Assembly (NCBI GenBank): GCA_903927685.1
Contig: CAIYOB010001438.1
Location: 1 to 21,406, forward strand
DNA from: an uncultured Planctomycetaceae bacterium
GTDB lineage: Bacteria > Planctomycetota > Planctomycetia > Pirellulales > Pirellulaceae
Length of the DNA: 21,406 nucleotides
Direction: 5' to 3'
The notes beneath the pieces are model-generated. The model searched no databases. It saw only the letters and a list, made by a program, of their open reading frames with translations, and was not told the origin of the DNA. The position numbers and the translations under genes were made by a program. This document shows, piece after piece, positions 3,663 through 21,406 of the stretch (the stretch's first letter is position 1; the number at the start of each line of letters is the position of its first letter).

Positions 3663-4208
3663 ATGCGGTTATTGCTGGCGTTCCGCGCGTTTTGGGTGGT
3701 TTTGTTTCAAGGAGCGGTCGCGGGCCGGGTCAAAGCGGTGCTGGATCAACCGGCGTTGCCGGCTCCGGCCCCCGAGCCGGTCAAGGCGTCGGCCCCCACG
3801 GTCCGGATCGAAAAGCCCAAGCCGCCCGTCCGCAGCGATGCGATTACGCTGCTGGCGACCCTGCAGCGGGAGGCGCGCTTTGTGGACTTGGCGCAAGAGT
3901 CGCTCGACGCCTACACCGATGCGCAGGTCGGAGCGGCGGCCCGCGACGTGTTGCGGGACTGCCGCAAGGTCCTCGAACGGCTGTTCGCTCTCCAGCCGGC
4001 GTTGAGCCAGGACGAGGGCTCCGCCGTCGACGTCCCGGCCGGATTTGATGCCGCCCGCTTCCGGCTGACCGGAAAGGTCGCCGGCGAAGGCCCGTTCCGC
4101 GGCCGCCTGGTCCATCCGGGCTGGGAAGCCGCCAAGTGCGAACTGCCGGCGTGGTCGGGCAGCGAGGCGTCCGCTCGCGTGGTGGCGCCGGCGGAAGTGG
4201 AGCTGTAG
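3663..4208 (+). CDS. DUF2760 family protein
   Basis: A 181-residue protein that I recognise as DUF2760 from its overall pattern. It has a hydrophobic N-terminus (MRLLLAFRAFWVVLFQGAVAG), a proline-rich linker (about 32-56), then a conserved core: a helical part with LLATLQREARFVDLAQESL and DAQVGAAARDVLRDCRKVL, and a small beta-rich tail with FRGRLVHPGWEAAKCELP. No catalytic motif is apparent and the biochemical role is unknown. The start ATG 3663 has AAAGG (3651-3655) seven bases upstream. It directly precedes an Hsp70-like gene, the usual neighbour of this family as I recall it, so a role linked to that chaperone is a reasonable inference. The first 20 residues could be a membrane anchor or a buried helix. 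Confidence 0.85.
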   Translation: MRLLLAFRAFWVVLFQGAVAGRVKAVLDQPALPAPAPEPVKASAPTVRIEKPKPPVRSDAITLLATLQREARFVDLAQESLDAYTDAQVGAAARDVLRDCRKVLERLFALQPALSQDEGSAVDVPAGFDAARFRLTGKVAGEGPFRGRLVHPGWEAAKCELPAWSGSEASARVVAPAEVEL

Positions 4209-4226
4209 AGGAACCTGGAACCGAAC

Positions 4227-4257
4227 GGAGGCGCGTGCCTGGCACGTGACACACATG
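4227..4257 (+). promoter_or_regulatory. Hsp70-like gene ribosome-binding region with small hairpin
   Basis: GGAGG (4227-4231) lies 23 bases before the preferred ATG 4255 and 14 before an in-frame GTG at 4246, both longer than ideal. Between GGAGG and the ATG is an inverted repeat, CGTGC (4234-4238) and GCACG (4242-4246), with a three-base loop. If folded in the mRNA it would bring GGAGG closer to the ATG, or it may modulate initiation. The GTG start would add only MTH to the protein. Confidence 0.35.
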
Positions 4258-6042: not shown

Positions 6043-6156
6043 AGCAGACTTGTTGGGGAGCGAACGGGCATCTGGTTTGATCCCGACCAGATCGACCTCA
6101 GTGGGTGGATCCGCCAAGGCGAAGATCTGGTCAAGATTCGGTTGGAGGGGACGTAG
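6043..6156 (+). pseudogene. C-terminal scrap resembling a glycoside hydrolase sugar-binding domain
   Basis: Directly after the Hsp70 stop, the same frame runs on for 37 codons to a TAG at 6154-6156. It reads GIWFDPDQIDLSGWIRQGED from 6067 and then LVKIRLEGT. The pattern W-F-D-P-x-x-I-D-L-S-G-W-I-x-x-G-E-D-x-L-V-x-I-R-L is typical of the galactose-binding jelly-roll near the end of GH2-like and related glycoside hydrolases. There is no start codon or N-terminal part, so it is at most a remnant. It could be a chance reading frame, but the motif is unusually coherent. It implies a deletion that removed most of a gene between the Hsp70 gene and the next gene. Confidence 0.45.
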
Positions 6157-6172
6157 CGACGTTCCGTCGGAG

Positions 6173-7378
6173 ATGCACATCATCATCACTTGCTTCCTCG
6201 TGAGTTCGCTGGCCTTCACAGCGTTGAATGCCGTGGCAGCGGAAAGGACGCCGGCCACCGTGGACATCTCGCGCGCGGAACTGCTCGATCGGATCCACGG
6301 CGGTTGGGTCGGCATGCTGATCGGCGGGCTGGAAGGGCTGCCGCACGAGTTCAAGTACAAGGAACAGCCACGCGACACGCTGCCGGAGTTCACCTTCCTG
6401 GAGCAGGGCGCCTGGTCCGACGACGACAACGACTTCGAGTGGCCGCACCTGTTCTTCATGGACCGGGAGGGCACGCTCCAACTGCCGTATCCACGCCTTG
6501 TCGCAATCTGGAAGGCGAACATGAATTCGGGCATCTGGGTCGCGAACAAAAAGGCTCGCGAGTTGATGGACCAGGGCGTGCTGCCGCCCGAAACCGGCGC
6601 CGTGGCCCGGAATCCGCACGCCTGGTACAACCTGTCCGGCCAGTTCTGCGTCGAGTCTTACGGCTTGATCGCGCCCGGCATGCCGCAGACTGCGGCCGAC
6701 ATCGGCCTCCACTACGCGCGGATTGCCGTGTCGGAGGAACCGCTGCAGGCGACGCAGTTCTGGACCAGTCTGATCAGCCTGAGCGCCGTCCACGAAGGCG
6801 CCGTCGACCAGGCGATGCAACGCGCCCTCGCCGCTGTGGACCCCAAGAGTGCGATGGCCGAAGTCGTGGCGGATACCTGCACAGCGTTTCAAACGCATCC
6901 GGACGACTGGAAAGCGGCGCGGCAGGAACTGCACCGCAAGTGGCGGCTGGAACGTCAGTGGAACGACAATTCCACGCCGGTCAACGGGGCGGCGGTCTGC
7001 CTTGCGTTGCTCTACGGGCGCGACGACTTCTACCGGACGCTGCAATACGCGATGGCCCTCGGCTACGACGCCGACTGCAACGCGGCCACCGCCGGGGCGG
7101 TCGTCGGCGTGCGTCTCGGCTTCCGACGCATCGCCGCGCTGCCGCAGTTCAGGATGCCCGACCGGTACGTGAACAAGACCCGCCCTCAATTGCCGGCCGA
7201 GTGCACTGTCAGCGAGCAGGCGGAGACGCTCCTGCGCGTCGCCGAGCGCGTCATCCTCGCCAACGGTGGCGAGTCCATCACCATCGCCGGCCAGTCGGGC
7301 TATCGCGTGAGGCTGCAGCAGCCGCGCCTCGTCGAACCGCTGCCGGAGAGAGCCCACGGACCGGGAGACAAACCATGA
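6173..7378 (+). CDS. Exported ADP-ribosylglycohydrolase (DraG/ARH) family protein
   Basis: A 401-residue protein. Residues 1-22 form a signal peptide (MHIIITCFLVSSLAFTALNA, then VAA), so it acts outside the cytoplasm. The mature part has the DraG/ARH pattern: RIHGGWVGMLIGG near residue 40, the first acidic metal site WSDDDNDFEW at 81-90, and the second site GYDADCNAATAGAVVG from 297. In classical enzymes the second site reads D-x-D-T/S; here the position after D301 is Cys302. The paired metal-site aspartates look intact, so hydrolase activity is plausible, but an exported enzyme need not act on protein ADP-ribosylation and may hydrolyse another N- or O-glycosidic bond. The frame is open to 6050, but ATG 6173 gives the signal peptide; GGAG touches the start codon, an unusually close spacing. 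It ends in ATGA, overlapping a dead six-codon start (MSHGGQ). Gene scraps lie on both sides. Confidence 0.87.
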   Translation: MHIIITCFLVSSLAFTALNAVAAERTPATVDISRAELLDRIHGGWVGMLIGGLEGLPHEFKYKEQPRDTLPEFTFLEQGAWSDDDNDFEWPHLFFMDREGTLQLPYPRLVAIWKANMNSGIWVANKKARELMDQGVLPPETGAVARNPHAWYNLSGQFCVESYGLIAPGMPQTAADIGLHYARIAVSEEPLQATQFWTSLISLSAVHEGAVDQAMQRALAAVDPKSAMAEVVADTCTAFQTHPDDWKAARQELHRKWRLERQWNDNSTPVNGAAVCLALLYGRDDFYRTLQYAMALGYDADCNAATAGAVVGVRLGFRRIAALPQFRMPDRYVNKTRPQLPAECTVSEQAETLLRVAERVILANGGESITIAGQSGYRVRLQQPRLVEPLPERAHGPGDKP

Positions 7379-7745: not shown

Positions 7746-9281
7746 ATGACCAGATTTCACAATCGACGAAGGTTTCTGAAACGCGTGGCTGCCGCGGGTG
7801 CGGCGGCGGGGTTGGCGGAGTTGTCGTTCGTCGCGGGCTGGCCGCCCGTGTCGGCCGCCGAGCTCGAGCCGCTGCCGGGTGTCGTCCCGCTGGACCCGGA
7901 CATCGAGCCGCTGGTCCGACTTCTGGAGGAAGCGCCGCGAGACCGCTTGCTGGAAGAGGTGGCCCAGCGGGTGCGCGGGGGCTTGAGTTACCGGGAAGTG
8001 CTGACGGCCTTGTTGCTGGCCGGTGTGCGAAACGTCCAGCCTCGGCCGTCGGTGGGCTTCAAATTCCACGCGGTGCTGGTGGTCAACTCGGTCCACTTGG
8101 CCGCGGCGGCTTCGCCGGAAAACGAACGCTGGCTGCCCCTGTTTTGGGCCCTGGACTACTTCAAGGAAGCGCAGGCTCAAGACGTGCGCGAAGGGAATTG
8201 GACGATGCGGCCCGTCGACAATTCCGCGGTGCCGCCCGCCGACAAGGCCCGCAAGGCGTTCCTCGCTGCGATGGACCGATGGGACGAATCGGCCGCAGAC
8301 GTGGCGGTCGCGGGACTGGCTCGCACGGCGCCGGCCAAGGACGTGTTCGAGTTGTTCTATCGGTTGGGCGCTCGCGATTTCCGCTCGATCGGCCACAAGG
8401 CGATCTTCGTAGCCGGCGCGGAACGACTGCTGCAGTTCATCGGCTGGCAGCACGCCGAGCCCGTGCTGCGGTCGCTGGCCTACGCCCTGCTGATGCACGA
8501 AGGCGGCAATCCGGCGGAGCGGGACGACGAAGCCGACCGGCCCTGGCGCCGGCATCCCGAATTGTTGAAGCGACTGGCCGGCGGCCTGGACGGCGGGAAA
8601 CGCGATGCGGGGGCGACGCGCGAGCTGATGGCCACCCTGCGCCGCGAGTCGCACGAAGCTGCAGCCGCTCAGGTCGTCGAGGTACTGAGCCGCGGCGTAG
8701 CTGCGCAATCGGTGTGGGATGCGATCTTCTGCGGGGCGGGTGAGTTACTGTTGCGCCAGCCGGGAATCGTGGCCTTGCACGCCGTCACCACGACCAATGC
8801 CCTGCATTATGCTTATCAGGCCAGCGGCGATCCGCAGACTCGCCAGCTGCTAGTCCTGCAAAACGCCGCTTTCCTGCCGATGTTCCGCGAAGCCATGCGG
8901 GTCCGCGGCCCCGTTGCCGAGGCGGCCCTCGATAGCCTCGAACCCGCGGAGTCGGCCGCCGCCGGTGCAGAAGGAGCCGCCGACGTGCTGGCGACCGTGA
9001 GCCGCGATCGGCGCGCGGCGGCCCGCAAGACCTTGGCGTATTTCGCGGCGGCAGGCGAGGACGCGACGCTGCTGAACGCCGCGCGGCAAGCGATGGTCCT
9101 GAAAGGCAACGACGCGCACGATTTCAAGTTCGGCGCGGCAGTCCTGGAAGACGCGGCGGCTGTCAGCCCGGAATGGCGCGGCCGATTCCTGGCGGCTGGG
9201 ATGCTGCAGTTGAACGGCGCAGGCGAGCCGGACAGTCCGACCCAAATGCGCGTACCCCGATTACTCGGCTTGCCAAAGTAG
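7746..9281 (+). CDS. Tat-exported protein of unknown function, 3' end rearranged
   Basis: A 511-residue protein with a twin-arginine signal: RRRFLKR at residues 7-13, an Ala/Gly-rich h-region, and a likely cleavage site near VSA-A at 35-38. The mature protein is alpha-helical and Ala-rich, with recognisable stretches such as LSYREVLTALLLAGVRNVQP, VGFKFHAVLVVNSVHLA and HEGGNP. I recall homologues in planctomycetes annotated only as Tat-signal proteins and know no activity; conserved histidines (the FHAV and NSVHL region, LMHEGG) might bind a metal or cofactor, which is a guess. Tat export suggests it folds in the cytoplasm first. The last 16 codons (9231-9278) are antisense to a DUF433 remnant, so the native C-terminus was probably replaced by rearrangement. 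The start is supported by GGAGG at 7734-7738. Confidence 0.85.
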   Translation: MTRFHNRRRFLKRVAAAGAAAGLAELSFVAGWPPVSAAELEPLPGVVPLDPDIEPLVRLLEEAPRDRLLEEVAQRVRGGLSYREVLTALLLAGVRNVQPRPSVGFKFHAVLVVNSVHLAAAASPENERWLPLFWALDYFKEAQAQDVREGNWTMRPVDNSAVPPADKARKAFLAAMDRWDESAADVAVAGLARTAPAKDVFELFYRLGARDFRSIGHKAIFVAGAERLLQFIGWQHAEPVLRSLAYALLMHEGGNPAERDDEADRPWRRHPELLKRLAGGLDGGKRDAGATRELMATLRRESHEAAAAQVVEVLSRGVAAQSVWDAIFCGAGELLLRQPGIVALHAVTTTNALHYAYQASGDPQTRQLLVLQNAAFLPMFREAMRVRGPVAEAALDSLEPAESAAAGAEGAADVLATVSRDRRAAARKTLAYFAAAGEDATLLNAARQAMVLKGNDAHDFKFGAAVLEDAAAVSPEWRGRFLAAGMLQLNGAGEPDSPTQMRVPRLLGLPK

Positions 9282-9495: not shown

Positions 9496-10016
9496 CAGAA
9501 TTCAAGGGGTTGGTAGGAAATCCTCGAAGGACTGGAAAAACGACAGAATCTTGGGTCAGCGAACCGTGTGTTTGCGTCCCTGGCGCGTCGCGGGTGCGAG
9601 GCTGCCCGCGAAGCCGTGCGGAGCAGCAGAATGGGGCTTCGTCGTAATCGTTGTTCTGATCCCGATCGGACGCGGCGACTTCATTGGTCATAACTGGCCG
9701 TAGGATGCCAGCCGGCAGGATCTGCCAAGGCGAGACGATAGCACATGGGTGCCGTAGGTTGCGCCAGCAGTTCGTTCCACGTGGCCGCCTGCCGACGGCG
9801 TCGCCTCCTGGGCATTCTCCCGGTCCATCGCAGGGTACCAGGCCCGACCTCGCGGCAGGGGACCTCGGTTCCCCAGCTGGACGGCATTCCTCCTCTGCGG
9901 GCCTGATTCTCGGAAAAGCCGCGAGCCGAGGTAAACGTTTCGCCGCGGCGCACGGTTATGGGGATAGGGGGACCTCGGAACTACTTGTGCCACGCAGTTT
10001 TCTCTTGTGGGATCGG

Positions 10017-10026
10017 GGAGGGGGAT
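10017..10026 (+). promoter_or_regulatory. Ribosome-binding site of the giant gene
   Basis: GGAGG (10017-10021) within a longer purine run, five bases before ATG 10027. This favours ATG 10027 over an in-frame ATG at 9958 that has no such site. Confidence 0.65.
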
Positions 10027-13000
10027 ATGTTTCGTCAACTCGTCGGCGAGGTGTTGAAGACAAGCAAGCGCGCGAAGCGGCTGGGACGGCGACGAGCGTT
10101 GGCGGAACGTTCGCGGTCCAACCGGCTGCAGTTCGAGTCGCTCGAACCACGGCTGGTGCTGGATGGGTATGCCGCCCTCGAGCGGCCGACGGAGTTGCAG
10201 TACTGGGACGCGACCAAGGCCGACAATGGGTACAACTTCTATGGCGTCGGCGGCACGTCTTATTTGCTCGACATGGAAGGCCGAGTCCTGCACACCTGGC
10301 CGATCGGCAACAATCCCCATCTGCTGGCCAACGGCAACGTGCTGGATGCCGCCACGAACGATCCCAGCGGGTTCAGCGGGTTCAAGGAAGTGACCTGGGA
10401 CGGGGCCACGGTTTGGTCGTATCTCGAAACCCGCTCGACCTACCACCCGCACCATGACTTCACGCGGATCTTCAACCCCGAGTTGAACGCCTACACCACG
10501 CTGTACATCGCCAACAAGGACCTGACCTACGACCAGTTGATCGCCGCCGGGGCGGACCCGGCGCGGACGCCGGCCACCGGCGCGCAGATGGACGCGATTG
10601 TCGAGGTCGACTCGACCGGGACGATTGTCTGGGAGTGGTCCTTCTTCGACCACGTAATCCAGGACTACGACGCGGCCAAGCCAAACTACGTGGGCGCGGG
10701 CAACACCATTGCCGACTACCCTGCCAAGCTGGACCTCAACCTCGACGGCCACAATCTGAAGAACGACTGGCTGCACTGCAATTCGTTGGACTACAACCAG
10801 ACGCTCGACCAGATCGTGATCAACTCGGTGCAGGGCGAGTTCTACGTCATCGACCACGGCGGCACATTCCTGGCCGGAGAGCCGACCGCCAGCACCGCCT
10901 TGGCCGCCACCAGCGCCGGCGATTTTCTGTACCGCTTCGGCGACCCGGCCCGCTACGACCAGGGGACCAAGCCCGAGATCCTCGACGACTGGACGCTCTC
11001 CACTACCGGCACCAAACAGATCGGCGGCGCCCACCACATCCAGTGGATCGCCGATGGCTTGGACGGGGCCGGGCACTTCCTGATCTTCAACAACGGCGAG
11101 TACCTGTCGGAGCACACGTCGCAGTCCTACGTGATGGAGATCGACCCGTACCTGGACGCCAGCGGGAACGATACGGGCCATTACGTGAACCCGCCGGATG
11201 CCGGCTACAGCACGCTCGTCTCGCCGGCGGTGACCGACAAGACGCCGAAGCTGATCTCCAAGCAGGTCGTGTGGAATTACTACAGCGAGAGCAACCTGAC
11301 GCTGTACAGCCAGATCGGCTGCGGCGCCCAGCGGTTGTCCAACGGGAATACGCTGATCACCGCGGACACCTACGGCTACATCATGGAGGTCACGCCCAGC
11401 GGCGAGACCGTCTGGGACTATATCATGCCGGTCACCAACAGCGGCAAGGCGCTGACCCTCGGCGACCGCCTGCCGATGGTGAACTCGATCTTCCGGGCCT
11501 TCCGTTACGATGAGAGCTACTCGGCCTTTGCCGGCCGCACGTTGACGCCTGGCGCGACCGTCGCCGGGCGCACGACCGTGGACAATCCCTACGCGGGCAC
11601 GGACCATTACGATGCGCTGCAGCGGCAGACCGAGACCCAGTACTGGGATGCCGCCAACGCCGCCAACGGCTACACGTTCTTCAGCGCGCAGGGCACGAGC
11701 TATCTTATCGACATGCAAGGACGGGTGGCGCACACGTGGGCCACGGGCACGGATGCCCGCTTGCTGGACAGCGGCAACCTGCTGGACTGGGCCACCAACG
11801 CCAGTGGTCAGACCGGACTGAAAGAACTGGACTGGAACGGCAATCCGGTCTGGCAGTACTACGAGACCCGTACGGCTTACCATCCCCACGGCGATTTCAG
11901 GCGGATCTACGACCCGAAGCTGGGGGCCTACGCCACGCTGTACCTGGCCAACAAGGACGTAACCGCGGCCGAGTGCATCGCCGCCGGTTGCGATCCGGCC
12001 GACGCGCCCTATGATGGCGCCCAGGTGGACACGATCGTCGAAGTCGACATGAGCGGGAACATCGTGTGGGAATGGTCGTTCTGGGACCATGCCATTCAGG
12101 ACGTCGACGCCACGAAGGCGAACTACGTCGGCTCGGGCAAGACGATCGCCGATTATCCGGGCAAGATCGACCTGAACCTGCCGGGCCGGCCGTTGCAGGC
12201 CAACTGGCTGGACGGCAACTCGCTGGACTACAACCAGTCGCTGGACCAGATCGTGGTCAACTCGCGGCAGGGCGAGTTTTACGTGATCGACCATGGCAAC
12301 ACGTTCCTCGCGGGCAATCCGGCCGGCAGCATCGCCCTGGCGGCGACCACGGCGGGCGATTTCCTGTATCGCTTCGGCGATCCGGCCCGGTACAGCCAAG
12401 GCACCCCGCCGTCAGTCAGCAGCGCCTGGGAGAGCGCCACCAGCGGCAACAAGCAGATCGGCGGCAGCAGCAATGTGCAGTGGATTGCCGCCGGACTGAG
12501 CGGCGCCGGCCATCTGTTGGTCTTCAACAACAACCAGTACCTGTATCAGCGCACGCCCCAGTCGTACGTGTTCGAGATCAATCCGTACTTGAACTCCAGC
12601 GGCGTCGACGCGGGCGCGTACGTCAACCCGCCCACGGCAGGGTACAACACGTGGAGTTTCGACAAGGACACGATGAAGGCCAATCAGTTGCTGTCCAAAC
12701 AGGTCGTGTGGAAATACGGCTCGGTCAGCAACCTGACCCTGTTCAGCCACTTCGGCTCGAGCGCCCAACGTCTGACCAACGGCAACACGCTGGTCTGTGC
12801 CACCGCAAACGGATACTTGGTCGAGGTGGATACGAGCGGCAACGTGGTCTGGGAGTACATCAACCCCGTCACGGATGCGGGGATCGTCACGGCGTTCGGT
12901 GACGACCTGCCGATGACCAACTCTGTGCCGCGGGCCCTGCGCTACGCCGCCGACTTCGCCGGGTTCGCCGGACACGACCTGACGCCGGGCGCCACGATCA

Positions 13001-16000
13001 CCGGCAACGTCATGCCCACGATCACGGGGACGACCCACACGCCGGCGGCGCCGTCGGCCACCGATGCCGTGTGGGTCACCAGTTCGATCTCCGACGACGG
13101 CAGCCTCGCCGGCGCCACGCTCACCTACGCGATTGGCAGCGGTACGCCGACCACGAGCACGCCGTTTACCGAGACCATGACGGCCACGGCGGTCAAGCCT
13201 TGGACCGGGACGGCGGCGGTGAATGCCTGGACAGTGACGGGCAGCTATTTCGAGACTCGCACCCAAGCGAACTACGGCACCGGCAACGCCTGCGGCCTGG
13301 AGTACAAGGGTCTGGTGACCAACAACCCCTTGACTAGCGCCATGATCGAAACGTCCAACGGCATCACGGCCACGGGCGAGTCGGGATACGTCGAGTTCTA
13401 CATCCAGACGCAGACGCTGGACGGGACCGACGGGTGGACGTTTCAACTCGATTCCGGCAGCGGCTATGTCACGCGATTGAGCGAACTGACGGGCAGCAGC
13501 CACACGTGGCAGAAGTACCACTACGATCTGGCCAGCAGTGAACTGGTTGCCGGGCTGAAGATGCGGTTCCAGTTCACCGGCGGCGGCAGCGGGGATCTGG
13601 ACGACCGGATCGACCTGGATCAGATCGCCGTCACGACCGTTTCCGGCGGCGGGAGCACTTCGACGGTGACGATGTACGATGACGGCCTGCACGGAGACGG
13701 GGCCTCAGGCGATCACGTCTACGGCGGGCAGATCCCGGCCCAGCCGCTGGGCACGACGGTCAGTTATTACGTCAACGCGACGGACAATTCGGGGTTCACG
13801 ACGTCCGACCCAGCCACGGCCCCGACAGACAAATACTCCTACACGGTAGGCGCCGCCAACAGTGCCCCCACCGTAGCGACGGCGGCCAGCGCCGCGCCCA
13901 ATCCGGTCACCGGCACGACCACCGTGCTCTCGGCCTTGGGCGCAGACGCGGATACGGGCGAAGCGAGTCTGACCTACACCTGGACGGCAACCACCGTGCC
14001 GAGCGGCGCCACCGCCCCGACCTTCAGCGTCAACGGCAGCAACGCCGCCAAGAGCACCACGGCCACGTTCGGCCAAGCCGGCAGCTACACGTTCCAGGTC
14101 GCGATCGCCGACCCGGGGAGCCTGTCCGTCAACAGCACGGTTGCGGTGACGGTGAATCAGACGCTCACGACGATCGCCGTCAGCCCCGCCTCGGTCACGG
14201 TGAACACAGGGGCCACGCAACAATTCACGGCGTCGGCCAAGGATCAGTTCAGCACCACGCTCGCGACGCAGCCCACGTTCACCTGGGCGACGACCGTCGG
14301 CACGATCAGCACGGCGGGCCTGTTGACGGCGCCGAGCACCGCCGTCTCCGGGACCGTCACCGCGACGAACGGCGGGGTCAGCGGGACCGCGTCGGTCACG
14401 GTCGGCAGCGCCACGCAGACTTACACGATGGCGGCCCTGCCCGATACAGGGCAAGTGGCCAGCTTGTCGACGCTTCCGGGCGAGGATTCGGATTATGCCA
14501 TCAACCCGCCGACGTACAAGGACAACGGCGACGGCACCGTCACGGACAAAGTCACCGGCTTGATGTGGCAGCAAGTCGACGGCGGCGAGATGACATGGGA
14601 GCAGGCGGCCGCCTATGCCGACAGTCTCACGTTGGGCGGCTACAGCGACTGGCGGCTGCCGTTCAGCAAGGAGTTGTTCAGCCTCATGGACGAGGGGACG
14701 ATCAACCCGGCCCTGAACACCGACTACTTCCCGAAGTCGGCGGCCGAGTATTGGTGGTCCAGCGATGTGGCCGTGGACACTGCGACCAAAGTCTGGGTCA
14801 CCAATGCCGGCGGCGGCATCGGCCCGCATCCCAAGACGGAAACGATCAGCGCGGGCGGGACCAAACGCTTCCACGTCCGCTGTGTGCGCGACCCGGCGGC
14901 TACGGGCGTCACCCAGTTCTCCGGCAACTTGACCGACAACGGCGACGGCACGGTGACCGACAATCATACGGGCCTGGTGTGGCAGCAGGCCGAATCGGCC
15001 ACGATGACTTGGGAGCAGGCGTTGGCTTACGCCCAAAGCCTCACGCTGGGCGGACAGAGCGACTGGCGACTGCCCAACATCAAGGAACTGCAGTCGGTCA
15101 GCGACAACAACTTCCGCGCCCCGTCGCTGGACAAGGCGTACTTCCCCGGCGGCACGGCTACGAAGTACTGGTCGTCCACGACCTTGGTCCAGGACGCGGC
15201 GCAAGCCTGGTACTTGGACAGCGACTACGGGCTGACCAGCTACGCCGCCAAGAGCGGCCTGTGGCACGTCCGCTGCGTGCGGGGCGGGGTCCCGGCCAGT
15301 CTCAGCGCGCCGGCGCTCTCGGTGATCCCCGCCGGCTCGTTCGTGATGGGCGACCACTTCGACTACACGGACCCGGAACATCCCACCGACGAGAAGCCGC
15401 TGCACACGGTCTCCATCGACCCGTTCTACCTGGGTACCTACGACATTACGAACGCCCAGTACCGGGACTACCTCAATTCCGCGCTGGCCCAAGGCCAGGT
15501 CGAAGTGCGCAACGGCGTGGTCTACGGCGCGGGCACCAGCACCATCTATTGCGAGACCCGTTCGTCGACGCTGTACAGTGTGATCGACAACGAGATCGTC
15601 TGGGACGGCGCGACCTTCTCCGTCGTCTCCGGCCGCGAGAACCATCCCATGGTCGGCGTACGCTGGGAGGGCGCGGCCGCCTATTGCAACTGGCTGAGTG
15701 ACGTCCACGGATACGAGCCGGTGTACGACGTGGCAACCTGGACCACCGACTACACCGCCAGCGGCTACCGCCTGCCCACCGAGGCCGAATGGGAATATGC
15801 GGCCAACGGCGGCGTGGCCTACGCCATGTTCCCCTGGGGCGACGATCCCAATACCGACGGCACCTTGGCCAACTGGCAGAACTCGGGCGATCCGTACGAG
15901 ACGGGCGACTATCCGTGGACGACACCTGTGGGGTTCTACAACGGCGAACTGCAGTTGAAGAGCGAGTTCGACTGGCCGGGCAGCGCGACCAGCTACCAGA

Positions 16001-19000
16001 CCTCCAACGCCGTCAACGGCTACGGCCTGTACGACATGTCGGGCAACGTCTGGCAGTGGACCAACGACTGGTACGGCCGCGAGTACTATGCGACGAGCCC
16101 GTCCAGCAATCCCCCGGGGCCGACGACCGGCGATCCCATGCCCGACGGCCTGCCCTACCACGTGCTCCGCGGGGGCCAGTGGTACAACGGGGCCGAGTAC
16201 TATGGCCATGGACGGATTGCCAACCGCGACCCGGGCTACTATCGCGGGCCCCAGGATCCCAATCATCCGTACTATCACGTCGGCTTCCGCGTCGCGCTGG
16301 CAGCCGAGGCCATCGTCCAGCCACGGGCCACCGACGAAGCCCTGGTCAGCACGCTGCAGTTCGGCGAAGGACCTGCGGCCGACGCCGACGGCAACGTGTA
16401 CTTCTCGGACGTCTCGGCGAATACGATCTACCAGTGGGCGACGACCGAGCAATTGTCCGTCTTCCGCACCAATTCCGGCGGAGCGAACGGGCTGGCGTTC
16501 GACGCCGCGGGGAACCTGATCGCCTGCGAAGGGACCAACGGTCGCGTCGTCTCGATCAGCCCGCAAGGGACCGTCACGGTGCTGGCGTCCCAGTACAACG
16601 GCACGCGGTTCAACGAGCCCAACGACCTATGGATCGATCCCGAGGGCGGAATTTACTTCACCGATCCGGTGTTCTTCGGGACCCAGGTCCAGGACAAGCA
16701 AGCCGTCTACTACATCAGTCCTGACCGCAGCACGGTCACACGCGTCATCAGCGACATGACCAAGCCCAATGGGCTGGTCGGCACGCCGGATGGCCAGACG
16801 CTGTACGTCAGCGACTACGGCGCCGGCGCCACGTACAAGTTCACGCTCAACGGCGATGGGACCCTGACGGGCAAGACGCTGTTTGCCGCGGTCGGCTCCG
16901 ACGGGATGGAGATCGACAGCGAGGGCAACGTCTATTTGACCACCGATGATGTCGTGGTCTACAACTCGGCGGGGACCAAGATCGACACGATCAACGTGCT
17001 GGACCGGCCCACCAATTTGTGCTTCGCGGGGGCCGACGGTCGGACGCTGTTCATCACGACCGAGAAGGGGCTTTACGCTATCCCTCTGCGTGTCACGGGA
17101 GCGATGGACGCAGGCGGCGTCACCGATGCGCCGCCGACAATCGCCGGCACCACCCGGACTCCCACGACTCCGTCGGCCGCGGACGCGGTGTGGGTCACCA
17201 GCACGGTCACCGACGACAGCGCGGTGGCCGGTGTCCAACTGACGTACGTCACGGGCAGCGGTACAGGCACGCCGACCACGCCGTTCACCGAGACCCTGGG
17301 AACCACCGCGGTGAAACCGTGGACCGGGGCCACCGGCTCGACCAACGCCTGGACCGTCACGGGCAACTACTTTGAGCTGCGGACCGGCGCCAACTATGTC
17401 ACCAGCACGACGGATTGTGGCCTGGAGTACAAAGGGACGACCACGCTGAACGACCTCACGAGCGCCATGGCGGCCACGACCAACGCGATTAATGCCGCGG
17501 GCACGTCCGGAACGGTCGAGTTCTGGGTCCAGACGCTCGGCCTGGACGGGACCGACGGCTGGACGTTCCAGGTCTCTCCCGACGGCGGCACGACTTGGAA
17601 TACGCGGCTGAGTGAACTGACCGGCAGCAGCCACGCCTTCCAGAAGTACAGCTACGCCTTGGCCGGCAGCGAGTTGGTCAGCACGCTCAAGCTGCGGTTC
17701 CAGTTCACCGGTGGAGGCGCGGGGGAGGACGATCGCATCGACTTGGACCAGATCACGGTCTCGGTCACCACCGGCAGCGTGCCGGTGACCGTCGCGATGC
17801 TCGACGACGGCGCCCACAACGACGGCGCGGCCGGCGACCACGTCTACGGCGGCCAGATCCCGGCCCTCGCCAGCGGCACGACCGTGCGGTATTACGTCAC
17901 GGCCACCGATGACGCCGGTCAGGCCGCCACCGATCCGGCTACCGCCCCTACCGATCAGTACTCGTACATCGTGGGCCACGCCACACCCGTGCTGCAACTG
18001 AACGAAGTCCTCGCCGGCAGTACGACCTTCCTGCCGACCGCGGACTATCCCGAAAAGACGGTCGGCCTGATCGTCGGCGACGACAGTGCCTGGGAGGGCT
18101 ACACGCTGCTGGTCCCCAAGCACAACACCAATACGTACCTGATCGACAATGCGGGCCGCGTGGTCAACTCCTGGTCCAGTGCGTACGTTCCGGGGCAATC
18201 CGCGTACTTGCTGCCCAACGGGCACTTGTTGCGGACGTGCATGACCAAGGGCGCCTTGAGCAGCGGCGGCGGGGAAGGCGGACGCGTCGAGGAGTACGAC
18301 TGGGACGGGAACTTGCTTTGGGAGTTCGACTACTCCAGCGACGCGTACATGCAGCACCACGACATCAAGCCTCTGCCCAACGGCAACATCATCATGCTGG
18401 CCGTGGAGAAGCGGACCTATGCCGAGGTGCTTGCGGCCGGGTTCAATCCGGCCCTGCTCGATTCCCAGATCGCCAGCAAGGGCTACATGCTGCCGGACAG
18501 CGTGGTCGAGATTCAGCCCGTGGGGGCTTCCGGCGGCACTGTCGTCTGGAAGTGGAGCGTATGGGATCACCTGATTCAGGACTTCGACGCGACCAAGGCC
18601 AACTACGGCGTGCCGGCAGCGCATCCGGAACTGATCGACCCCAACGGGTATGCCGAGACCGGCAAGATCATGCAGTTCTGGAACCACATGAACTCGATCG
18701 ACTACAACCCCGAGTTCGACCAGATCATGCTCAGCGTCCGCGGGAGCAGCGAACTGTGGATCATCGATCACAGTACGACCACCGCCCAGGCGGCGGGCCA
18801 CACGGGCGGCCTGCGCGGCAAAGGCGGCGACCTGGTCTATCGCTGGGGCAATCCCGTGACCTATGACGCCGGCACGGCCGCCGATCAGATGCTGTTTGAC
18901 CAGCACGATGCGCAGTGGATCGAAGCCGGCTCCCCCGGTGCCGGACACATCCTGGTGTTCAACAACGGTCTGGGACGGAACTACTCCAGCGTCGATGAGA

Positions 19001-21406
19001 TCGTGCCGCCGGTGGACGCCTTGGGCAACTACACACTGACGGCCGGCTCGGCCTACGCGCCCGACGCGCTCTACTGGACCTACGTTGCGCCCCAGCCGAC
19101 CGATTTGTACTCGGAGGCGATCTCCGGCGCCCAGCGGCTGCCCAACGGAAACACCCTGATTTGCGACGGCACCCACGGGGTGTTGCTCGAGGTGCTCCCG
19201 GCCGGCGGCGAGCCGGTCTGGGAGTACGTCAATCCGGAAATCAACACGGGGATCCTGTACCAAGGCGACGAAGCGCCCATCGACATCCGCGGCCACGACT
19301 ATAACGCGGTGTTCAAGGTCGAACGCTACGCGCCGGACTTCGCGGGCTTCGCCGGTCGGGATCTGACGCCCGGCGATCCTGTCGAGTTGTACCGCGACTG
19401 GATCGAGATCCGCAACCCCGGTACGTCCGCCGTCGACCTGAGCGGCATGTATCTGACCAACGACGCCGGCGCGCCGACCAAGTTCCAGATCCCCGCGGGC
19501 GTATCGATTCCGGCCGGCGGGTACGTCCTCGTCTGGGCCGACAATCAGACCACGTCGGGCAGCCGGCACACGAATTTCACCTTGGACGCAGCGGGCGGAA
19601 CGGTCAGCCTGTACGACATCGACGGCCTCACCCGCGTCGATACGCTCACGTACGGCGCCCAGACGAACGATGTCTCCTACGGCCGCTACCCGAACGGCAC
19701 CGGCGACTGGCAGGCGATGACGACACCGACTCCCGGCGCAGCCAACGTGGGCGGCGTCAACGAGGCCCCGACGGACATCACGCTGTCTTCGACTTCGGTC
19801 GCCGAAAACTCGCCTGCGGGAACGGCGGTAGGCGCGCTGACCAGCGCCGACCCGAATTCCGGCAACACCTTCACGTATAGCTTGGTGAGTGGCACCGGCA
19901 GCGACAACAACGGCTCGTTCACGATCAGCGGCAGCACGCTTCAGACCGCGGTCAGCTTCGATTACGAGACGCAGAACTCCTACAGCGTCCGGATCCGCTC
20001 CACCGACCAGGGCGGCCTGTCCGTGGAGAAGGTCTTTTCGCTGAGTGTGACGAACGTCAACGAGCCGCCGGTGATCCTGGGCACCAGTCGCACGCCCGCC
20101 GTGCCGGCCGCTGCCGATGCGGTGTGGGTTACCAGCACGGTCACCGACGACGGCACCGTCTCCGGCGTCAAGCTCACCTATTCGACCGGCACCGGCACGC
20201 CCGTCACGAGCACGGTATTCACCGAGACGATGACGTCCACGGAACTTAAACCTTGGACCGGTACCGGGGCCGTGAATGCCTGGACCGTGACGGGCACGTA
20301 CTTGGAGCAGCGCGTGGGATCCAACTACGGCACCGGAAATGTCTGCGGCCTGGAGTACAAGGGCGGTGGAACGCTCAACTCGCTCACCGCTGCAATGCTG
20401 ACCACCACCGACGCCATCAAGGCCGCCGGTACAGCGGGGTTCGTCGAATTCTGGGTCCAGTCGCTGACGCTGGACGGGACCGACGGCTGGACGTTCCAAC
20501 TCGATACGGGCAGCGGCTATGTGACACGGCTGAGCGAGCTGACCGGCAACAGTCACGCCTGGCAGCTGTATCATTACGACCTCGCGGCCAACGAATTGGT
20601 CAATACGCTCAAGATGCGATTCCAGTTCACGGGCGGCGGTGCGTCGGATGACGACCGGATCGATCTGGATCAGATCAGCGTGACGGTCACGACCGGCCCC
20701 GCCGCGACCGACGTCACGATGTATGACGACGGCGCTCACGGCGACGGCTCCGTCGGCGATCACGTCTTCGGCGGCCAGATCCCCGCCATGCCCAGTGGGA
20801 CCAGTGTCAACTACTACGTCACCGCCACCGACAACGCCGGCCTCGTCAGCACTGACCCCGCCGCGGCACCCACCGACAAGTACTCCTACACGGTCGGCGC
20901 AGCTGCGTTAACCGTGAGTGTGGCGGCGGCCTCCGTGGCCGAAAACGCCGGCGCGGCCGCGACAACGGTGACGATCAGCCGCAACACAGGTCCCACCGCG
21001 GCCCTGACGGTCAACCTGTCCAGCAGCGATACGACGGAAGGCACCGTCCCAGCCACGGCCACGATTCCGGCCGGCCAAGCGTCGGTGACGGTGAATCTGG
21101 CCGCGGTGGACGACACACTGGTGGACGGCGTCCAGACGGTCACGATCACGGCTACGGCGACCGGGTTCACCGACGGCAGCGACACGCTGCAGGTGACGGA
21201 CAACGACGCCGCGACCTTGACCGTGGACGTGGCCGCCGCGACCGTGGCGGAAAACGCCGGGGCAGCGGCGACCACGGTGACGATCAGCCGCAACACGGAT
21301 ACCACCGCGGCCTTGACCGTCAACCTGTCCAGCAGCGATACCGGCGAAGCCACGGTCCCGGCCACGGCCACAATTCCGGCCGGCCAGGCTTCCGTGACCG
21401 TGAATC
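10027..21406 (+). CDS. Giant LEPR-type extracellular multidomain protein with ASST-like propellers (3' end outside window)
   Basis: At least 3793 codons without a stop, still open at the window edge. The N-terminus is basic (MFRQLVGEVLKTSKRAKRLG) with no classical hydrophobic signal, followed by LEPRLVL at 39-45, the planctomycete LEPR-type motif of large exported proteins. Domains by residue: ASST-like propeller 55-511; ASST-like 535-993; repeated module copy 1 997-1275; PKD-like 1278-1378; Big_2-like 1379-1461; DUF1566 1497-1624 and 1631-1753; FGE-sulfatase fold 1764-2091; SMP-30-type propeller 2105-2355; module copy 2 2370-2650; lamin-tail domain split around a third ASST-like propeller (2655-3240); cadherin-like 3244-3347; module copy 3 3348-3624; Calx-beta repeats from 3625. 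The cadherin and Calx-beta parts suggest calcium binding and a surface role. The ASST parts could move sulfate between phenolic donors and acceptors, but activity is unproven. No operon partner is visible. The start rests on GGAGG at 10017-10021. Confidence 0.92.
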   Translation, partial: MFRQLVGEVLKTSKRAKRLGRRRALAERSRSNRLQFESLEPRLVLDGYAALERPTELQYWDATKADNGYNFYGVGGTSYLLDMEGRVLHTWPIGNNPHLLANGNVLDAATNDPSGFSGFKEVTWDGATVWSYLETRSTYHPHHDFTRIFNPELNAYTTLYIANKDLTYDQLIAAGADPARTPATGAQMDAIVEVDSTGTIVWEWSFFDHVIQDYDAAKPNYVGAGNTIADYPAKLDLNLDGHNLKNDWLHCNSLDYNQTLDQIVINSVQGEFYVIDHGGTFLAGEPTASTALAATSAGDFLYRFGDPARYDQGTKPEILDDWTLSTTGTKQIGGAHHIQWIADGLDGAGHFLIFNNGEYLSEHTSQSYVMEIDPYLDASGNDTGHYVNPPDAGYSTLVSPAVTDKTPKLISKQVVWNYYSESNLTLYSQIGCGAQRLSNGNTLITADTYGYIMEVTPSGETVWDYIMPVTNSGKALTLGDRLPMVNSIFRAFRYDESYSAFAGRTLTPGATVAGRTTVDNPYAGTDHYDALQRQTETQYWDAANAANGYTFFSAQGTSYLIDMQGRVAHTWATGTDARLLDSGNLLDWATNASGQTGLKELDWNGNPVWQYYETRTAYHPHGDFRRIYDPKLGAYATLYLANKDVTAAECIAAGCDPADAPYDGAQVDTIVEVDMSGNIVWEWSFWDHAIQDVDATKANYVGSGKTIADYPGKIDLNLPGRPLQANWLDGNSLDYNQSLDQIVVNSRQGEFYVIDHGNTFLAGNPAGSIALAATTAGDFLYRFGDPARYSQGTPPSVSSAWESATSGNKQIGGSSNVQWIAAGLSGAGHLLVFNNNQYLYQRTPQSYVFEINPYLNSSGVDAGAYVNPPTAGYNTWSFDKDTMKANQLLSKQVVWKYGSVSNLTLFSHFGSSAQRLTNGNTLVCATANGYLVEVDTSGNVVWEYINPVTDAGIVTAFGDDLPMTNSVPRALRYAADFAGFAGHDLTPGATITGNVMPTITGTTHTPAAPSATDAVWVTSSISDDGSLAGATLTYAIGSGTPTTSTPFTETMTATAVKPWTGTAAVNAWTVTGSYFETRTQANYGTGNACGLEYKGLVTNNPLTSAMIETSNGITATGESGYVEFYIQTQTLDGTDGWTFQLDSGSGYVTRLSELTGSSHTWQKYHYDLASSELVAGLKMRFQFTGGGSGDLDDRIDLDQIAVTTVSGGGSTSTVTMYDDGLHGDGASGDHVYGGQIPAQPLGTTVSYYVNATDNSGFTTSDPATAPTDKYSYTVGAANSAPTVATAASAAPNPVTGTTTVLSALGADADTGEASLTYTWTATTVPSGATAPTFSVNGSNAAKSTTATFGQAGSYTFQVAIADPGSLSVNSTVAVTVNQTLTTIAVSPASVTVNTGATQQFTASAKDQFSTTLATQPTFTWATTVGTISTAGLLTAPSTAVSGTVTATNGGVSGTASVTVGSATQTYTMAALPDTGQVASLSTLPGEDSDYAINPPTYKDNGDGTVTDKVTGLMWQQVDGGEMTWEQAAAYADSLTLGGYSDWRLPFSKELFSLMDEGTINPALNTDYFPKSAAEYWWSSDVAVDTATKVWVTNAGGGIGPHPKTETISAGGTKRFHVRCVRDPAATGVTQFSGNLTDNGDGTVTDNHTGLVWQQAESATMTWEQALAYAQSLTLGGQSDWRLPNIKELQSVSDNNFRAPSLDKAYFPGGTATKYWSSTTLVQDAAQAWYLDSDYGLTSYAAKSGLWHVRCVRGGVPASLSAPALSVIPAGSFVMGDHFDYTDPEHPTDEKPLHTVSIDPFYLGTYDITNAQYRDYLNSALAQGQVEVRNGVVYGAGTSTIYCETRSSTLYSVIDNEIVWDGATFSVVSGRENHPMVGVRWEGAAAYCNWLSDVHGYEPVYDVATWTTDYTASGYRLPTEAEWEYAANGGVAYAMFPWGDDPNTDGTLANWQNSGDPYETGDYPWTTPVGFYNGELQLKSEFDWPGSATSYQTSNAVNGYGLYDMSGNVWQWTNDWYGREYYATSPSSNPPGPTTGDPMPDGLPYHVLRGGQWYNGAEYYGHGRIANRDPGYYRGPQDPNHPYYHVGFRVALAAEAIVQPRATDEALVSTLQFGEGPAADADGNVYFSDVSANTIYQWATTEQLSVFRTNSGGANGLAFDAAGNLIACEGTNGRVVSISPQGTVTVLASQYNGTRFNEPNDLWIDPEGGIYFTDPVFFGTQVQDKQAVYYISPDRSTVTRVISDMTKPNGLVGTPDGQTLYVSDYGAGATYKFTLNGDGTLTGKTLFAAVGSDGMEIDSEGNVYLTTDDVVVYNSAGTKIDTINVLDRPTNLCFAGADGRTLFITTEKGLYAIPLRVTGAMDAGGVTDAPPTIAGTTRTPTTPSAADAVWVTSTVTDDSAVAGVQLTYVTGSGTGTPTTPFTETLGTTAVKPWTGATGSTNAWTVTGNYFELRTGANYVTSTTDCGLEYKGTTTLNDLTSAMAATTNAINAAGTSGTVEFWVQTLGLDGTDGWTFQVSPDGGTTWNTRLSELTGSSHAFQKYSYALAGSELVSTLKLRFQFTGGGAGEDDRIDLDQITVSVTTGSVPVTVAMLDDGAHNDGAAGDHVYGGQIPALASGTTVRYYVTATDDAGQAATDPATAPTDQYSYIVGHATPVLQLNEVLAGSTTFLPTADYPEKTVGLIVGDDSAWEGYTLLVPKHNTNTYLIDNAGRVVNSWSSAYVPGQSAYLLPNGHLLRTCMTKGALSSGGGEGGRVEEYDWDGNLLWEFDYSSDAYMQHHDIKPLPNGNIIMLAVEKRTYAEVLAAGFNPALLDSQIASKGYMLPDSVVEIQPVGASGGTVVWKWSVWDHLIQDFDATKANYGVPAAHPELIDPNGYAETGKIMQFWNHMNSIDYNPEFDQIMLSVRGSSELWIIDHSTTTAQAAGHTGGLRGKGGDLVYRWGNPVTYDAGTAADQMLFDQHDAQWIEAGSPGAGHILVFNNGLGRNYSSVDEIVPPVDALGNYTLTAGSAYAPDALYWTYVAPQPTDLYSEAISGAQRLPNGNTLICDGTHGVLLEVLPAGGEPVWEYVNPEINTGILYQGDEAPIDIRGHDYNAVFKVERYAPDFAGFAGRDLTPGDPVELYRDWIEIRNPGTSAVDLSGMYLTNDAGAPTKFQIPAGVSIPAGGYVLVWADNQTTSGSRHTNFTLDAAGGTVSLYDIDGLTRVDTLTYGAQTNDVSYGRYPNGTGDWQAMTTPTPGAANVGGVNEAPTDITLSSTSVAENSPAGTAVGALTSADPNSGNTFTYSLVSGTGSDNNGSFTISGSTLQTAVSFDYETQNSYSVRIRSTDQGGLSVEKVFSLSVTNVNEPPVILGTSRTPAVPAAADAVWVTSTVTDDGTVSGVKLTYSTGTGTPVTSTVFTETMTSTELKPWTGTGAVNAWTVTGTYLEQRVGSNYGTGNVCGLEYKGGGTLNSLTAAMLTTTDAIKAAGTAGFVEFWVQSLTLDGTDGWTFQLDTGSGYVTRLSELTGNSHAWQLYHYDLAANELVNTLKMRFQFTGGGASDDDRIDLDQISVTVTTGPAATDVTMYDDGAHGDGSVGDHVFGGQIPAMPSGTSVNYYVTATDNAGLVSTDPAAAPTDKYSYTVGAAALTVSVAAASVAENAGAAATTVTISRNTGPTAALTVNLSSSDTTEGTVPATATIPAGQASVTVNLAAVDDTLVDGVQTVTITATATGFTDGSDTLQVTDNDAATLTVDVAAATVAENAGAAATTVTISRNTDTTAALTVNLSSSDTGEATVPATATIPAGQASVTVN
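10189..11559 (+). other. ASST-like domain 1 (arylsulfotransferase propeller)
   Basis: Part of the giant protein, residues 55-511. Opens with YWDATKADNGYNFYGVGGTS and YLLDMEGRVLHTW, the usual first blade of this family. It has histidines at three positions typical of the ASST active site: YHPHHDF (10441), WLHCNSLDYN (10771) and GGAHHIQWI (near 11026). At the expected arginine position it reads INSVQGEFYVIDH, with valine instead. It ends with AFAGRTLTPGATVAG. Confidence 0.75.
11629..13005 (+). other. ASST-like domain 2, apparently degenerate
   Basis: Residues 535-993, clearly a duplicate of domain 1 in order and spacing (TETQYWDAANAANGYTF against TELQYWDATKADNGYNF). All three histidine positions are changed: HPHGDF for HPHHDF, WLDGNSLDYN for WLHCNSLDYN, and GGSSNVQWI for GGAHHIQWI. 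The arginine is kept (VNSRQGE). It is therefore probably a structural or binding propeller. Confidence 0.72.
13015..13851 (+). repeat. Repeated 280-residue module, copy 1
   Basis: 279 residues. Landmarks shared by the three copies: PTITGTTHTP and DAVWVTS at the start, KPWTG, NAWTVTGSYFE, CGLEYKG, LDGTDGWTFQ, RLSELTGSSH, MRFQFTGGG, DDRIDLDQI, then a second part with MYDDGLHGDGASGDHVYGGQ and YYVNATDNSG ending KYSYTVG. The second part resembles the Ig-like domain commonly found beside lamin-tail domains. Copies 2 and 3 lie at 17134-17976 and 20068-20898. Confidence 0.85.
13858..14409 (+). other. PKD-like and Big_2-like Ig domains
   Basis: Residues 1278-1461. The first part (SAPTVATAASAAPNPVTGTT, LTYTWTATTVPSGAT, GSYTFQVAIADPG) has a PKD/Ig-type pattern. 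The second (TLTTIAVSPASVTVNTGATQ, QFTASAKDQF, TFTWATT) has the Big_2 bacterial Ig-like pattern. Both are typical spacer or adhesion modules of extracellular proteins. Confidence 0.65.
14515..15285 (+). other. Tandem DUF1566 domains
   Basis: Two copies. The first (from 14515) has DNGDGTVTDKVTGLMWQQ, MTWEQAAAYADSL, GGYSDWRLP, a tryptophan-rich middle and RFHVRCVRD. The second (from 14917) has DNGDGTVTDNHTGLVWQQ, SDWRLPNIKELQS and WHVRCVRGG. This is the DUF1566 pattern of secreted proteins, a C-type-lectin/FGE-related fold, which fits its position just before an FGE-like domain. Confidence 0.8.
15316..16299 (+). other. FGE-sulfatase-fold domain, cysteine-less
   Basis: Residues 1764-2091. Landmarks: VIPAGSFVMGDHF, YLGTYDITNAQYRDYLNS, HPMVGVRWEGAAAYCNWLS, GYRLPTEAEWEYAANGG, FPWGDDPNTDG, GLYDMSGNVWQWTNDWYG, VLRGGQWYNGAEYYGHGRI and HVGFRVAL. 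These match the formylglycine-generating-enzyme (sulfatase-modifying factor) family. Real FGEs carry catalytic cysteines just after RGGSW; here the segment is RGGQWYNGAEYYGHGR with none, so sulfatase activation is unlikely. A binding role is more probable. Confidence 0.85.
16339..17091 (+). other. SMP-30/gluconolactonase-type beta-propeller domain
   Basis: Residues 2105-2355. Successive blades read FGEGPAADADGNVYFSDV, GANGLAFDAAGNLIACEG, NEPNDLWIDPEGGIYFTDP, KPNGLVGTPDGQTLYVSDYG and MEIDSEGNVYLTTDDV. This is the SGL pattern, including metal-site-like E (GEGPA), N (EPNDL) and D positions. Either a lactonase or a plain propeller; activity is unknown. Confidence 0.75.
17134..17976 (+). repeat. 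Repeated 280-residue module, copy 2
   Basis: 281 residues. Landmarks: PTIAGTTRTP, DAVWVTSTVTDDSAVAG, KPWTGATGSTNAWTVTG, CGLEYKG, LDGTDGWTFQVS, RLSELTGSSHAFQKY, LRFQFTGGG, DDRIDLDQI, DDGAHNDGAAGDHVYGGQ, RYYVTATDDAG. It immediately precedes the split lamin-tail domain. Confidence 0.85.
17989..19746 (+). other. Lamin-tail domain apparently split by ASST-like domain 3
   Basis: The first strand of an LTD (VLQLNEVLAGSTTFLP, 17989-18036) is followed by a complete ASST-like propeller (about 18037-19377). The rest of the LTD then resumes: DWIEIRNPGTSAVDLSGMYL, KFQIPAGVSIPAGGYVLVWA, DVSYGRYPNGTGDWQAMTTP, ending at TPGAAN (19378-19746). In ordinary LTDs the NE-x-L-A and DWIE strands are only about 10-15 residues apart. 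The inserted ASST part has MQHHDIKPLPNGN, FWNHMNSIDYN, LSVRGSSELWIIDH and FDQHDAQWI, so all four putative active-site residues are present. Confidence 0.7.
19756..20067 (+). other. Cadherin-like domain
   Basis: Residues 3244-3347: NEAPTDITLSSTSVAENSPA, GTAVGALTSADPNSGNTFTY, FDYETQNSYSVRIRSTDQGG and VTNVNEPP. The A-E-N, D-Y-E and N-x-N-E-P-P positions fit the calcium-binding pattern of bacterial cadherin domains. Confidence 0.8.
20068..20898 (+). repeat. Repeated 280-residue module, copy 3
   Basis: 277 residues. Landmarks: PVILGTSRTPAVPAAADAVW, NAWTVTGTYLEQR, CGLEYKGGG, LDGTDGWTFQLDTGSGYVTR, MRFQFTGGG, DDRIDLDQI, MYDDGAHGDGSVGDHVFGGQ, KYSYTVG. It is closest to copy 1 in its QLD-GSGYVTR segment. 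Confidence 0.85.
20899..21406 (+). repeat. Calx-beta repeats, 309-base period, cut by window edge
   Basis: One full repeat and most of a second. LTVSVAAASVAENAGAAATT (from 20908) is matched by LTVDVAAATVAENAGAAATT (from 21217), and VNLSSSDT recurs at the same 309-base (103-residue) offset. VDDTLVDGVQTVTITATATG is the classic Calx-beta end. The two copies are very similar in bases as well as residues, which points to recent duplication or gene conversion. More copies probably follow. Confidence 0.88.

Follow-up and report, generated by a model that had tools for sequence, protein, structure and literature searches.

Why should a single bacterial protein carry several arylsulfotransferase-like (ASST) propellers, and are such copies equivalent? 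The question is raised by a 21,406-nucleotide (nt) stretch of DNA from an uncultured Planctomycetaceae bacterium (contig CAIYOB010001438.1 of assembly GCA_903927685.1), hereafter the window, which contains a giant open reading frame (ORF). The original prediction, made from the letters alone, described an open frame of at least 3793 codons with three ASST-like propellers joined to adhesion-type and other modules. AssT of Escherichia coli, with which the propellers are compared here, is periplasmic. The review PMC13426309 describes AssT as homodimeric, with a single propeller and a beta-sandwich at the N-terminus, whereas the window protein holds three propeller copies, two of them altered, in one giant chain.

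The frame spans 9958..21405 on the forward strand, comprises 3816 codons and is open at its 3' end, where the window stops. An in-frame ATG at 10027, preceded by the ribosome-binding-site-like sequence GGGGAGGGGGAT, is the preferred start and leaves 3793 codons, so that the predicted length holds; in-frame stops were looked for, and none was found in the giant ORF.

Three unequal propellers in one chain

The profile searches and structure prediction suggested with the original prediction were carried out; the profiles uphold all three propellers, and the modelled folds uphold two of them. PF05935 and PF14269 each match the giant in three stretches above the gathering score, which was the standard for all Pfam calls (curated cut-offs were used for NCBIfam), with E 6.3e-46 for PF05935. 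The predicted models of ASST3, the C-type copy, and of ASST1, an N-type copy, are structurally closest to Cpz4 and next to AssT, and point to no unrelated propeller family; ASST3 combines the AssT-type profile with the AssT propeller fold as modelled. Cpz4 of Streptomyces (PDB 9kf4, 9kf6) is a sulfotransferase of caprazamycin synthesis according to the entry title, whereas a Pfam-level scan of the window genes reveals no natural product pathway.

According to the review PMC13426309, His436 is the sulfated residue of AssT, and the site also includes His252, His356, Asn358, Arg374 and Thr501. A profile built from ASST3-type sequences together with ASST1 and ASST2 was aligned to AssT (PDB 3elq). 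ASST3, whose modelled fold is that of AssT (PDB 3elq, 3ets, 4p04), retains five of the aligned residues, namely H2801, H2910, N2912, R2928 and the nucleophile H2983 for H252, H356, N358, R374 and H436, the H252 equivalent resting on a sub-significant stretch together with conservation within the family. The histidine of its QHDAQW motif aligns with His436, a residue that is Asn in the H436N structure entries. This pentad, HHNRH, is found in 66/67 C-type domains of giant proteins (the C-type domain of P0018 reads HHHRH and was counted as incomplete) and in 120/120 single-domain-sized relatives among the matches listed, of 7995.

ASST1 retains four residues (H166, H273, N275 and H359) and has no Arg at the R374 site, so its pentad is incomplete. 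The R374 site is occupied by V291 in the first alignment and by Gln292 in the second, and the latter placement agrees with the S-V-[Q/R/G]-G-E motif of the single-domain-sized N-type proteins listed; since the two alignments differ, the claim is limited to the absence of Arg. ASST2 has lost all three histidines (H252 to Gly645, H356 to Asp752 and H436 to Ser838), lacks the pentad, and keeps N754, with R770 or Q771 at the R374 site. Enzymatic equivalence of the three propellers is rejected: ASST3 is complete, ASST1 is without the Arg and ASST2 is without any of the three histidines. Together with two Lcl_C domains, this inequality goes beyond the original prediction.

Among 120 listed single-domain-sized N-type relatives, the R374 site is Gln in 58, Arg in 39 and Gly in 18, and the histidines are fixed in 118; the variation among Gln, Arg and Gly may mark differences in specificity.

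Giant homologues and separate gene clusters

With the ASST1-ASST2 region as query against similar-sized proteins, 2006 candidates were scored and 70 significant giant homologues were found, 2109-4862 residues in length and 53-83% identical. Segments of the window protein map onto most of them (FGE-like, 69; choice-of-anchor X, 69; Lcl_C, 59; SGL, 51), and the C-type ASST3 is present in 67/71 giants, the window's included. They include giant "DUF1566 domain-containing" proteins, with source names that include Verrucomicrobia, Lentisphaerae, Kiritimatiellales and Sumerlaeota metagenome-assembled genomes (MAGs). The latter have the core domain set of the window protein and belong to one family with it; however, an additional PhoD-type phosphatase is present in many and sulfatase domains in two, and the C-terminal tails differ. 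The ends of P0002 feature a LESRVLL motif, which is N-terminal, and a dockerin domain; in many others the N-terminus is plain and signal-like (by eye), and the tail closes in GFYRV, FYRI or similar.

These homologues bear on whether the three-propeller ORF is real. The giant gene contains internal direct repeats and the window is a fragment, as might be expected of an assembly chimera or spurious fusion. On the other hand, 70 homologues follow much the same plan, P0002 is 83% identical throughout the ASST1-ASST2 region, and the repeats, at 68-83% identity, are too divergent for easy collapse. A chimera is therefore highly improbable, chance or misassembly is an unlikely source of the frame, and the idea of a one-off protein is rejected. 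The original prediction knew of no described system with several ASSTs in a giant surface protein; no description of the architecture or of the gene cluster appears among the literature matches listed, in a search whose coverage left out most subscription journals, but the homologues and the split clusters described below show that the architecture is no isolated case. PMC10866078 notes no more than the presence of arylsulfotransferase and sulfotransferase genes in a pair of MAGs (Hydrogenedentota, Sumerlaeota).

The copies follow a pattern. Each of the 22 three-copy giants, of which the window protein is one, has exactly one N-type copy reading HHN.H and one degenerate N-type copy from which two or all three of the histidines are gone, their order being reversed in P0019, P0021 and P0022; the C-type copy is complete in 21/22. 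Where a giant pairs a single N-type with a single C-type copy, the N-type nucleophile is lost in 41/45 (three copies from N-N pairs are excluded from the count), and a separate HHN.H gene lies upstream of such two-copy giants at the readable loci L031, L033 and L035. At L037 the fused N-type copy itself reads HHN.H, and G171 (L042) is an exception to the pattern. In a quick tree of 89 of the 203 ASST domains, 19/22 first copies and 19/22 middle copies form two distinct, strongly supported sets, and the remaining three three-copy giants fall outside both. Because copy pattern and tree separate first, middle and C-type copies, the family tends to keep three different propeller roles, fused and split alike.

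The same parts also occur as neighbouring genes. Twelve genomes with an N-type ASST were inspected (G001, G002, G003, G009, G018, G124, G145, G167, G171, G183, G227 and G632; the near-copies L004 and L005 are excluded from the count), all of the Verrucomicrobia and Ignavibacteria phyla, and within each locus the matched domains all lie on the same strand. Besides the N-type ASST, 11 of the 12 loci hold an FGE-like domain, 10 a C-type ASST, 10 a metallophosphatase or PhoD-type domain, 8 Lcl_C (weak in G124), 6 PEBP, 6 an LTXXQ-like domain and 4 SGL. The parts are separate genes in G003, G009, G167 and G632 and fused to varying degrees in the others. An Ignavibacteriae locus (L003) has five consecutive same-strand genes, encoding two metallophosphatases, a C-type ASST, an N-type ASST and an Lcl_C-Lcl_C-FGE protein, each of which ends in a type IX secretion system (T9SS) sorting tail. 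The Lac Pavin Verrucomicrobia genomes (L001, L002) have the homologue, which L002 encodes in two frames, beside an LTXXQ-like gene, with FGE, PEBP and ASST genes or fusions close by. The G009 locus includes a sulfatase gene.

Among 387 sampled genomes of the G001 phylum, N-type sequences occur in 9, C-type in 16 and both in 8 (E <=1e-100; N-type in 14 at the looser cut of 1e-40), a co-occurrence with a Fisher p of 9.8e-12 when kinship is ignored. Among 395 genomes of the G003 phylum, the N-type occurs in 2, G003 being one of them.

An LTXXQ-like protein of 440-610 residues (P0192 type), matched by PF07813 only in part, lies near ASST genes at L001:4784-6616, L002:8199-9821, L035, L037, L039 and L042; at L042 it forms part of a 963-residue protein with PEBP. 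At L041:9395-10837 (reverse strand), a PF00884 sulfatase lies between metallophosphatase and N-type ASST genes.

Companion domains and a possible group-transfer system

The FGE fold of the original prediction stands (E 2.1e-46 to PF03781). The domain shares the fold of the formylglycine-generating enzyme (FGE; PDB 2q17, 6muj) but has neither catalytic Cys, and the Cys pair of Streptomyces coelicolor FGE is found in 0/83 family rows, some of which are near-duplicates. Activation of sulfatases in the manner of FGE is rejected because the pair is absent. In most of 14 rows displayed, the place of the Cys region is taken by a motif of the G[HF].R..NR.P type, often with Y.RGP after it, which is perhaps the binding site of an FGE-fold subfamily.

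The predicted SMP-30-type propeller was recovered as well, with SGL above the gathering score. The whole propeller aligns with solved gluconolactonases (PDB 3e5z, 3dr2), and the EGP, PND, PNGL and DG motifs of 3e5z are present, with conserved acidic and Asn residues that we take to be the metal-site residues of SMP-30/gluconolactonase; the window copy is embedded in a giant chain, and its lactonase role is putative. ASST3 itself seems, from motifs and profile scores, to be nested inside an LTD, with the strand LQLNEVLAGSTT before it and DWIEIRNPG after it. Joined, the two flanks score 67.4 bits (profile positions 4-108) against 62.8 for the C-terminal flank alone (23-108), a gain of only 4.6 bits; comparable flanks surround ASST3 in three relatives, P0002, P0016 and P0023.

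What might these parts do together? Their occurrence fused in some genomes and split in others indicates that they function together. Since the same parts form separate or partly fused same-strand genes in the 12 genomes, the giant may be read, with about an even chance of being right, as a fused secreted multi-protein set whose genes are clustered elsewhere, with transfer independent of 3'-phosphoadenosine-5'-phosphosulfate (PAPS) at ASST3 and binding by the other modules. Sulfuryl transfer at ASST3 is the leading idea because only ASST3 has the complete AssT site, and PAPS-independent transfer of a sulfuryl or related ester group at this propeller, within a secreted scaffold, is the best reading. 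In the proposed scheme, the protein would be exported, and ASST3 would, without PAPS, pass a sulfuryl group from an aryl sulfate to H2983, forming a sulfo-histidine, and from there to a hydroxyl acceptor, whether phenolic or of another kind. ASST1 might be a second site that differs in specificity or rate; ASST2, the FGE-like domain and the Lcl_C domains would serve to bind or position substrate or partners; the SGL propeller could open a lactone or ester; and choice-of-anchor X, LTD and cadherin domains would act as spacers that keep the enzymes together at the surface. The predicted surface platform for sulfated or phenolic compounds fits ASST3, with its five residues intact; ASST1, ASST2 and the FGE-like domain are each missing catalytic residues.

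The degenerate copies invite another explanation, in which the propellers and lectin-like folds only bind and the giant is an adhesin or matrix protein that holds on to sulfated or phenolic ligands and does not convert them. In its favour, the catalytic sites of ASST2 and the FGE-like domain are degenerate, adhesion-type modules are present, and nearly all giants that pair a single N-type with a single C-type copy have lost the N-type nucleophile, but the near-invariance of the C-type pentad in giants and listed single-domain-sized relatives alike, and the enzyme-like cluster partners (metallophosphatases, and a sulfatase at one locus), make pure binding rather unlikely.

Phosphate-ester chemistry deserves similar attention. 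ASST3 and its relatives could be hydrolases or enzymes that move another group, such as phosphoryl: metallophosphatase or PhoD-type domains occur in 10 of the 12 clusters and as fused domains in several giants, conservation of T501 is not evident by hand count, and the sulfotransferase names of relatives, where informative, were taken as homology-based only. All five residues examined are nevertheless kept in ASST3, and the best fold match of its model is a sulfotransferase reaction intermediate, so we regard this alternative as improbable.

Several points weigh against sulfuryl transfer by an exported, clustered system. At E 2.3e-5 the profile matches 3elq weakly, and the H252 stretch alone is not significant; by hand count, Ile lies opposite T501, the remaining residue of the AssT site, where the alignment is loose. 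We infer the substrate, donor, acceptor and location of the giant, and its export is presumed, its LEPR-like motif being below the cut-off. Because the clusters include metallophosphatases, the group moved may be other than sulfate. The Fisher test takes no account of kinship, and G001, on which its sample is centred, itself came from the N-type scan; 8/16 C-type genomes are without the N-type, and the C-type therefore also occurs alone. A Pfam scan confined to the window found no cluster partner among its own upstream genes.

The clusters contain metallophosphatases and one sulfatase, which suggests that the ester chemistry is a wider one. Sulfuryl transfer at ASST3 could belong to a broader scheme, which we put forward tentatively and somewhat short of an even chance: an extracellular multi-enzyme system, not previously described, in which two distinct types of AssT-like propeller, an inactive paralogue, a binding domain with an FGE-like fold and a lactonase propeller cooperate in group-transfer chemistry with metallophosphatase, PEBP and LTXXQ partners in other genomes, fused into one chain in the window's lineage and with lineage-specific export tags at both ends. 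The fusion ties a very large "aryl-sulfate sulfotransferase" family of unclear role (7995 significant single-domain-sized proteins among 7997 candidates scored) to a recurring partner set, and offers a hypothesis of how uncultured bacteria might metabolise sulfate esters outside the cell. That a complete, a variant and a dead propeller occur together in a chain is a sharp clue to mechanism.

Domain map and neighbourhood

The features of the giant are collected in Table 1. Lcl_C (twice), FGE-sulfatase, SGL, LTD and Cadherin each score above the Pfam gathering score, and choice-of-anchor X matches three times above the NCBIfam cut-off. Of the predicted adhesion modules, LTD and cadherin are thus supported, Calx-beta remains sub-threshold (12.7 vs 27 bits), and Ig-like linkers between the first choice-of-anchor X copy and the Lcl_C pair were assigned by eye. 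The predicted LEPR motif is discernible by eye and falls below the NF012209 (LEPR-XLL) cut-off (12.0 vs 17 bits); the literature matches listed for LEPR-XLL contained nothing on function. By itself, this LEPR-like motif would suggest a planctomycete origin.

Table 1. Features of the giant ORF, with positions in the window
Feature	Position	Strand	Basis or remark
Giant ORF, 3'-open	10027..21405	+	Upstream in-frame ATG at 9958
LEPR-XLL-like motif FESLEPRLVLDG, ends N-terminal stretch, within residues 57-70	10126..10167	+	Below family cut-off
ASST1, N-type propeller, residues 69-540	10162..11577	+	Pfam and model; H166 H273 N275 Q292 (or V291) H359
ASST2, degenerate N-type propeller, residues 550-1030	11605..13047	+	Pfam; G645 D752 N754 S838
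Choice-of-anchor X copy 1, residues 1045-1290	13090..13827	+	NCBIfam
Two Lcl_C (DUF1566) domains, residues 1510-1780	14485..15297	+	Pfam
FGE-fold domain without catalytic Cys pair, residues 1784-2113	15307..16296	+	Pfam
SMP-30/gluconolactonase-like propeller (SGL), residues 2135-2368	16360..17061	+	Pfam
Choice-of-anchor X copy 2	17140..17907	+	NCBIfam
Probable first LTD strand LQLNEVLAGSTT, residues 2679-2690, severed from remainder by ASST3	17992..18027	+	
ASST3, C-type propeller, complete pentad H2801 H2910 N2912 R2928 H2983	18028..19332	+	Pfam and model
Remainder of LTD, residues 3147-3233	19396..19656	+	Pfam
Cadherin domain	19789..20049	+	Pfam
Choice-of-anchor X copy 3	20068..20877	+	NCBIfam
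Calx-beta-like repeats, ~309 nt period, leaving window	20895..21405	+	Sub-threshold

A scan of the window for promoters and terminators found nothing. Upstream, at 3663-7378, lie DUF2760, Hsp70-like and ADP-ribosylglycohydrolase genes on the same strand as the giant. The gene with a Tat signal at 7746-9281 was considered as an LTXXQ-like partner and rejected (best E 14). Among the giant homologues, P0024 and P0025 have a C-terminal transmembrane-like stretch with a charged tail and look rich in NxT/NxS sequons (by eye); they are possibly archaeal.
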